From contig JAJZIX010000007.1 in NCBI GenBank assembly GCA_021810345.1, positions 1-33,082 of the forward strand: a DNA stretch of 33,082 nt, in the 5' to 3' direction. Positions within the stretch are counted from its first letter, which is position 1, and each line of letters opens with the position of its first letter. Source of the stretch: Nanobdellota archaeon (GTDB lineage Archaea; Nanobdellota; Nanobdellia; Parvarchaeales; Parvarchaeaceae). A model generated the notes under the pieces. The model was not told the DNA's origin. It saw only the letters and a list, made by a program, of their open reading frames with translations, and did no database searches. Made by a program: the position numbers and the translations under genes. Positions 3,101 to 29,970 of the stretch are shown one piece after another.

Positions 3101-3172
3101 GCCTCTGTAGCTTAGCAGCATAGCGCCTGACTTGTAATCAGGAGGTCGAGGGTGCGAATCCCTCCAGAGGCT
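3101..3172 (+). tRNA. tRNA-Thr(TGT)
   Basis: 72-nt cloverleaf: acceptor GCCTCTG/CAGAGGC, anticodon arm CCTGA-CTTGTAA-TCAGG, T arm GAGGG-TGCGAAT-CCCTC; upstream TATA-like aatatataaac. No encoded CCA. Confidence 0.95.
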
Positions 3173-20010: not shown

Positions 20011-20081
20011 TGGGTCGTAGGAGATTTGCACTCCTGCGTCTCGGGCTTCAACCGAGTGTTCTCCTACTGAACTAACGACCC
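20011..20081 (-). tRNA. tRNA-Phe(GAA)
   Basis: 71-nt cloverleaf: acceptor GGGTCGT/ACGACCC, D arm GTTC-AGTAGGA-GAAC, anticodon arm CTCGG-TTGAAGC-CCGAG, T arm AGGAG-TGCAAAT-CTCCT. No encoded CCA. Confidence 0.95.
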
Positions 20082-28240: not shown

Positions 28241-29089
28241 ATGGTTCACTTAAAAAGTATACAGGGGTGTGGGGTTTATTCGAATGGTTACTACAGAACA
28301 GGGTTTACTATAGCTAATACTACACCAACAGTAGATTACCAACAGGCCTCGCAGGATTCTGACCCGCAGTTGCAGGACTTCCTTTCTGCCATAAGCAGCC
28401 AGGAACAAGATGGAATAGGCGACATGTTCAGCAACAAGTACCTAGGTCAGCTCCAGTACACGGGCGCAGAGCCAGGTGTGGAGGTATTAGGTAAGATAAA
28501 CGAGCTGCAGGAGAAATACAAGCAAAATATGATGGAGCAGGATGCCGTCGAGTTTCCATCCAACCTTGCAGGTTTTGGTCTCCTAGATCATGTTTTGGTC
28601 CCATACTATGATGCAAATGGGCACTTAGTATACAATAATGGCCAGCCCACATACATGCTTAGGGGGCGCTATGGTTACAAGCTTCTCTCAAAGAAACCAC
28701 AATATCACAGCAAAATGTACCCTGTTGCACAAACCATTTGGCAAAATTCGATAAATGAGCGTATGCATCTTGGTAATTTTAAGAGGCATTTAATAAACAC
28801 GAAAATTTATTCTGACAGCCTAGAGATGCACATTTTCTCTCCTTACAGGCTTGCAGGGGGATATCCATCACCGCTTAGCTCGTGGGCAAAGTCGCATTTA
28901 GGTATGGGCTACTACCCGCTGCATTACATGGTCGGCACGCCGTTTGAAATCATAAAAGGCCTGGTGTTGGGTCCAAGGATTGACATTGTCACGAAGAAAC
29001 CAGTCACAATCAATGAGGCAAAGAAACTATTCTCTATACTATCAGCAGGCAACGCACAGGCAAGGCTGGAAGCTGAGGAGAACACCTAA
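28241..29089 (+). CDS. hypothetical protein (282 aa)
   Basis: Long ORF, SD-like tgaggt before ATG, followed 2 nt later by the next ORF. Confidence 0.78.
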   Translation: MVHLKSIQGCGVYSNGYYRTGFTIANTTPTVDYQQASQDSDPQLQDFLSAISSQEQDGIGDMFSNKYLGQLQYTGAEPGVEVLGKINELQEKYKQNMMEQDAVEFPSNLAGFGLLDHVLVPYYDANGHLVYNNGQPTYMLRGRYGYKLLSKKPQYHSKMYPVAQTIWQNSINERMHLGNFKRHLINTKIYSDSLEMHIFSPYRLAGGYPSPLSSWAKSHLGMGYYPLHYMVGTPFEIIKGLVLGPRIDIVTKKPVTINEAKKLFSILSAGNAQARLEAEENT

Positions 29090-29091
29090 AT

Positions 29092-29970
29092 ATGTTCGGA
29101 AAAGTAAAAAGCATGTTTGGAGAAGGGACTTCCTACGTCAAGAAGCAGGTTGACTCATATAAATCTGAGATCGAGCAGGGCAAAGACTGGGAAAATGCTC
29201 TTGTAACAGAGGGTTCTACGCTATGCAAGGTGGAGATAAGCCCAGTGGATAACTTCCCGCCACCCGAGCATATACTGGTCAAGAAGGGTACGCTTGAAAG
29301 CATCCTGGGTGTAGGCGCTTCAGGGTTCGTCGAAATGTTCGGACCCACGCAAGACAGCAAGGGCAAGCTGAGCGGATATTACCTTCAGGGTTCTTTCCCA
29401 ATGATAACAGCAAGCGAGGAGATCTCTAAAAAGCTAAGGGATGGTGTGGCTTACATAAGCAGGGCAAACGATCCGAAAAACACGGACCCAGCTCGTATGC
29501 CGCAGATGGGTCTGATAAATCCCGCTTATCTTACAAGGGAGAACAGCCTCAAGAAGAGCACGCTTTATATCAATGGGAATTATGAGGGCTACAGCAATGG
29601 AAAGCTTACACCTTTGAACTATAGTAGGGCCCAGGCAGTCAGGAATAACATCACAAAGGATATAGGGGTTGGAATGGTTGGCATGCTGCCAAAGGAATGG
29701 ACGGACAAAATAGCAGGATTGCTGTTTCCCGCGCCTAAAGTCGGTGACATCATCCCAGTGATAGCTTACCGCTCACCGGAAGCAGTAAAGAACCCAACGA
29801 AGGATAACACGATAACTTTCCCAGCGGTTGTTGCTGCCGGTATAAACAGGCTTCAGGTTCCAATGTCTGCTACCACTTACAAAGATTATAAGGGCAATCA
29901 GAGGAGCGGAATATCGAGCGTGTACGCCTTTGAAGCAATAATAGGACTGGACAAAAGATTTATGAGGTAA
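29092..29970 (+). CDS. hypothetical protein (292 aa), operonic with the preceding gene
   Basis: Starts 2 nt after the upstream stop, same strand. Confidence 0.78.
   Translation: MFGKVKSMFGEGTSYVKKQVDSYKSEIEQGKDWENALVTEGSTLCKVEISPVDNFPPPEHILVKKGTLESILGVGASGFVEMFGPTQDSKGKLSGYYLQGSFPMITASEEISKKLRDGVAYISRANDPKNTDPARMPQMGLINPAYLTRENSLKKSTLYINGNYEGYSNGKLTPLNYSRAQAVRNNITKDIGVGMVGMLPKEWTDKIAGLLFPAPKVGDIIPVIAYRSPEAVKNPTKDNTITFPAVVAAGINRLQVPMSATTYKDYKGNQRSGISSVYAFEAIIGLDKRFMR

Follow-up and report, generated by a model that had tools for sequence, protein, structure and literature searches.

Two tRNA genes of a small-genomed archaeon, tRNA-Thr(UGU) and tRNA-Phe(GAA), carry A18 and G55 where elongator tRNAs have G18 and U55. 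Both very probably function as elongator tRNAs, with A18·G55 taking the place of the elbow pair G18·Ψ55 through a compensatory switch that occurs naturally and has recurred. Across the sequences compared, positions 18 and 55 covary almost perfectly, with A18·G55 apparently standing in for G18·Ψ55.

Two tRNAs with A18 and G55

The window (the whole stretch of 33,082 nucleotides that was analysed) contains just these two tRNA genes (Table 1). The preliminary description of this DNA had reported A18 and G55 in tRNA-Thr, which direct reading, ARAGORN and Rfam RF00005 all bear out; the tRNA-Phe had escaped it. The covariance-model scores of 69 bits for tRNA-Thr and 62.8 bits for tRNA-Phe, against a cut-off of 29, place both among tRNAs with an elongator cloverleaf. 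Both have stems of 7/4/5/5 bp, with 7 of 7 acceptor and 5 of 5 T-stem pairs formed. On reading the sequences, the tertiary pairs U8-A14, G15-C48, G19-C56 and U54-A58 were all found, and the G18·U55 (Ψ55) contact of elongator tRNAs was absent from both. In tRNA-Thr the D-loop was numbered A14 G15 C16 A18 G19 C20 A21 (G19 at position 3118) and the T-loop U54 G55 C56 G57 A58 A59 U60. An alignment artefact at A18 was ruled out, because at 7 nt the D-loop is exactly as long as the canonical A14-R15-Y16-G18-G19-N20-A21 loops of the same genome, such as AACGGCA of tRNA-Asn.

Table 1. Positions of the two tRNA genes and of their residues 18 and 55 in the window.
Feature	Position	Strand	Evidence
tRNA-Thr(UGU), A18/G55	3101..3172	+	ARAGORN; Rfam RF00005 69 bits; own-genome tRNA table
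A18 of tRNA-Thr(UGU), canonical G18	3117	+	D-loop AGCAGCA, 7 nt; D-stem GCTT/TAGC
G55 of tRNA-Thr(UGU), canonical U55 (pseudouridine target)	3154	+	T-loop TGCGAAT inside GAGGG/CCCTC
tRNA-Phe(GAA), A18/G55 as well	20011..20081	-	ARAGORN; Rfam RF00005 62.8 bits; own-genome tRNA table
A18 of tRNA-Phe(GAA)	20065	-	D-loop AGTAGGA, 7 nt
G55 of tRNA-Phe(GAA)	20029	-	T-loop TGCAAAT inside AGGAG/CTCCT; pattern match 20028-20074

The genome is a draft of 670 kb in 22 contigs, 90% complete. The genes of the window include a RadA-like recombinase and a family 4-type uracil-DNA glycosylase, which we take to be a content of the small-archaeon type. All 43 tRNA genes detected in the genome were laid on the standard tRNA numbering. 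G18/U55 was found in 37, G18/C55 in four and A18/G55 in two, with no other combination. A18 and G55 fall in the identical two of 43 tRNAs, for which the chance under random pairing is 1 in 903. The preliminary description had held that standard G18/U55 tRNAs elsewhere in the genome would speak against a real exchange. The other tRNAs are indeed largely standard, but tRNA-Phe shares the variant, and the argument fails since both letters switch together, tRNA by tRNA. The four G18/C55 tRNAs (Gly-GCC, Glu-UUC, His and Glu-CUC) also have no pseudouridine target at position 55. A tRNA-Arg(UCG)-like gene on contig C18 (8270-8374) was matched by Infernal and missed by ARAGORN; it appears to contain additional sequence on the side of the T-arm, which may be an intron lying outside the anticodon loop.

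No other Thr-UGU or Phe tRNA is among the 43 detected, so both variants must serve translation, barring a further copy in the missing part of the genome. Draft assembly in 22 contigs could favour a sequencing or assembly error, or the genes might have decayed. However, the identical double change is found in two separate tRNAs whose stems are complete and which are the sole tRNAs of their kind detected, an orthologue in a second assembly (99% identity) has A18/G55 too, and the combination recurs in many other genomes, one of them complete. Error or decay is already refuted by this recurrence, and we give it practically no weight. RNA editing of G55 back to U was also rejected as an explanation, as it would leave A18 unexplained; we know of no G-to-U RNA editing.

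Covariation of positions 18 and 55 in other genomes

To survey the class to which this archaeon belongs, 236 of its genomes were searched with patterns spanning U8 to C56; these demand G10, C25, G19, C56, a short variable loop and no intron, and partners in tRNAs of other shapes could escape them. The pattern for G55 with a purine at position 18 gave 56 matches with a loose stem filter and 48 with a strict one, with A18 in all and G18 in none. Two of the 56 (labelled Leu-UAG and Gln-UUG) are probably chance matches, leaving about 54 tRNAs. These belong to 12 isoacceptors, mostly Thr but also Cys, Gly, Ala, Val, Phe and Tyr among others, and to about 23 families, in a tally that assigns genomes without an entered family to the window's genus by default. 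The pattern for G55 with a pyrimidine at 18 gave five matches in the 236 genomes, none of them tRNA-like, and hence no C18 or U18 partner. A18/U55 was found in three to four tRNAs at most, including a tRNA-Ala in two genomes of one family. Most matches to the A18/U55 pattern were discarded as tRNA-Asn or tRNA-Thr with A17-G18-G19, whose loops are canonical but matched in a shifted register. The common G18/U55 form gave about 109 matches in just 17 genomes. A Fisher test on the class counts returned p ~2e-40, a value to be read with the caution that the genome sets differ and that the counts are of related sequences and not of independent events; how many switches arose independently is the more telling figure.

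Switching is visible among close relatives. DNA similarity searches recovered the tRNA orthologues in part, because tRNAs diverge fast, and the orthologous Thr, Phe and Ala tRNAs of relatives had either G18/U55 or A18/G55. In the window's genus A18/G55 occurs in at least Thr-UGU, Thr-GGU, Phe, Gly-CCC and Ala-CGC, varying with the species. The closest natural pair consists of two tRNA-Thr(UGU) genes from one genus (loci L054 and L058) that differ at 6 of 71 bases, namely positions 18, 55 and 57, two bases that together exchange a pair of the anticodon stem, and a sixth base. As a separate observation, two species of the genus have a tRNA-Thr(UGU) whose T-loop, ATCATCA, is far from any consensus.

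The combination is also found outside the class. A scan of one genome per GTDB species with the strict A18/G55 pattern returned at least 120 stretches, and ARAGORN identified G55 tRNAs in 56 of the 80 loci examined among the matches listed. The tRNAs identified in this way include tRNA-Phe of SAR11, tRNA-Cys of Patescibacteria, tRNA-Ile(GAU) of Mycoplasma haemocanis, tRNA-Val of Armatimonadota, tRNA-Phe of Chloroflexi and others; one of the matches listed comes from a genome named as Micrarchaeota. When any base was allowed at position 18, A18 was found in 89 of 89 tRNA-like G55 matches, covering ten isoacceptors, in 144 genomes of a class of the Parcubacteria group, and, across 60 SAR11-family genomes, in 21 of 21 G55 tRNA matches, read without applying the stem script. 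In all three surveys (the archaeal class, the Parcubacteria-group class and the SAR11 family) G55 went with A18 and no other base, and no G18/G55 tRNA was seen. The earlier claim that 18 and 55 had changed in concert, with 19-56, 15-48, 8-14 and 54-58 intact, is thereby strengthened by covariation over hundreds of genomes.

One array departs from this rule. In a Verrucomicrobia-binned tRNA array (CALMOL010000128.1, 5510-7815), possibly of a virus or plasmid, most tRNAs have G55, together with either A18 or C18 (D-loops, for example, AACCGCA in tRNA-Val and AACACGTA in tRNA-Lys). C18/G55 in a few odd tRNAs of the array is a counter-instance to strict partnering with A18.

Could A18 and G55 be tolerated separately, under a relaxed elbow in reduced genomes, and be joined only through shared ancestry or tRNA gene conversion? 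Many carriers are small-genomed (DPANN-like, Patescibacteria, SAR11 and Mycoplasma), and the dominance of Thr in the class suggests some common descent. In contrast, at least 12 isoacceptors from about 23 families of a single class are involved, bacteria add further isotypes, and switching occurs within a genus. All of this argues against the explanation, as do the lack of any G18/G55 or Y18/G55 tRNA in the class and Parcubacteria-group surveys and the existence of carriers with large genomes (Nostoc-binned and Streptomyces tRNA-like genes). We consider separate tolerance unlikely and favour a compensatory switch of the pair.

tRNA-Gly variants with altered D- and T-loops are used in cell-wall synthesis, and A18/G55 tRNAs might likewise be special-purpose molecules that act outside the ribosome and have lost elbow bases. 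In addition to this precedent, the T-arm is irregular in four tRNA-Gly(UCC)-like genes with A18/G55 from Streptomyces and Streptacidiphilus, which are perhaps degenerate or special-purpose. Against such a role, the variants of the window are the sole tRNA-Phe and tRNA-Thr(UGU) detected. In the complete chromosome of M. haemocanis, of which 30 tRNAs were read, G55 occurs in tRNA-Ile(GAU) alone, and this is the only tRNA with that anticodon among the 30. Sole-copy status means that these A18/G55 tRNAs must decode codons, making a special-purpose role very unlikely. M. haemocanis also has U56 for C56 in several Gly, Glu, Asn and Asp tRNAs, with the T-loops TTTGATT or TTTGAAT, and A19 in the D-loop of at least the two Gly tRNAs; here the neighbouring elbow pair has apparently been exchanged for A19-U56.

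A proposed elbow in which A18 faces G55

In the usual elbow, residue 18 inserts into the T-loop between positions 57 and 58, where it pairs with Ψ55 through a single hydrogen bond; residue 19 pairs with residue 56 (PMC4810234). Since 54-58, 19-56, 15-48 and 8-14 are kept and 18-55 alone is changed, the simplest reading is that residue 18 inserts as usual and makes a new A·G contact. U54-A58 would still close the T-loop, with the backbone turning after residue 55. A18 would insert between R57 and A58 and touch G55, and the ribosome, RNase P and other partners could still reach the G19-C56 face of the elbow. The covariation is the basis on which the A18·G55 contact is predicted. The variants resemble the canonical elongator elbow (G18·Ψ55, G19-C56, U54-A58) in the other elbow and core pairs, in stem and loop lengths and in the exposed G19-C56, and differ from it in having A18/G55, which precludes pseudouridine at 55. 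The data point to a local exchange of the pair in an ordinary T-loop fold, for which "redesigned elbow", the term of the preliminary description, is too strong. The evolutionary path may have led through an A18/U55 intermediate, because A18/U55 tRNAs are rare but present and G18/G55 tRNAs are absent.

A similar arrangement is known from T-box riboswitches. The T-loops of the T-box elbow-binding motif have the consensuses AGAGA and UGxRA, both with G at position 2 (PMC7583486), and the position-5 A of one T-loop slots into the gap in the other and touches residue 2 there (PMC4810234). An RNA solution in which an inserted A faces a position-2 G is thus already established, one that we infer tRNAs to use as well. 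The pentaloops UGCGA of tRNA-Thr and UGCAA of tRNA-Phe both fit this motif, U54-G55-C56-R57-A58 corresponding to UGxRA, with an A as the proposed filler of the gap between positions 4 and 5 (PMC4810234, PMC7583486). Since the UGCRA loop matches UGxRA, the variants probably form a Ψ55-independent elbow of the same kind, in which A18 would be intercalated opposite G55 as the T-box A is opposite its position-2 G. The two differ in that two T-loops interlock in the T-box, whereas in the predicted geometry of the tRNA variants the inserted base would come from the D-loop. Eukaryotic tRNA-Ala, with the unusual tertiary pairs R15/A48 together with A54/A58, is a further case in which some tRNAs have exchanged a near-universal tertiary pair in a coordinated way (PMC7566577). 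It differs in concerning other positions and eukaryotes only, and the accessible part of that source mentions no 18/55 swap.

In reviews and surveys, Ψ55 and G18 are consistently described as conserved (PMC7912444, PMC9023262). No natural A18-G55 pair was reported in the literature that we searched, older suppressor-tRNA selection work lying outside that search. Zagryadskaya, Doyon, Kotlova and Steinberg reportedly randomised the D- and T-loops of suppressor tRNAs (2003-2007) to test which combinations give active tRNA, and the A18-G55 solution may already have been described there. That work used artificial selection in E. coli, whereas the tRNAs considered here come from natural genomes.

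A broader proposal, whose chances we judge to be about even, is that A18·G55 constitutes a second elbow, widely distributed, repeatedly evolved, independent of Ψ55 and built like the riboswitch UGxRA T-loop, with lineages switching individual tRNAs between the two types, so that G18·Ψ55 would be a local optimum alongside A18·G55 without being required universally. A covarying natural replacement marks the 18-55 contact as a selected pair with two solutions. Single-copy tRNAs that must function without Ψ55 are now identified, and matched natural pairs (the same tRNA with both elbow types in the same genus) allow the contributions of the pair and of the modification to be measured. The variant also bears on tRNA gene finding and on the elbow rules used in synthetic tRNA design.

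Pseudouridine 55 and its enzymes

Both genes encode G55, leaving no U55 substrate for Pus10, TruB or Cbf5 and therefore no Ψ55, which both tRNAs evidently do without. The earlier statement that tRNA-Thr offers no target to the Ψ55 synthase follows directly from G55 and extends to tRNA-Phe. Of the two synthases that had been singled out for a search, Pus10 gave no match over the cut-off in the genome and no full match in relatives, and a TruB-family protein with TruB_N, TruB_C_2 and PUA domains is present. This protein is Cbf5-like, and it presumably acts on the 37 other tRNAs with U55 or on rRNA. Loss of a pseudouridine synthase is not implied.

On contig C18 of the genome, at about 28305-29150 on the minus strand, we observed a short insert that is found in seven genomes of the genus and is absent in four other species of it; a sister genus has a 16-nt insert at the same place. 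The insert region, GGGACTTT...RAAGAAATCCC, folds like a relaxed bulge-helix-bulge, and crenarchaeal cbf5 introns occupy the same codon position (PMC2738675). The insert is apparently an archaeal pre-mRNA intron of very small size, carried by a DPANN-like lineage.
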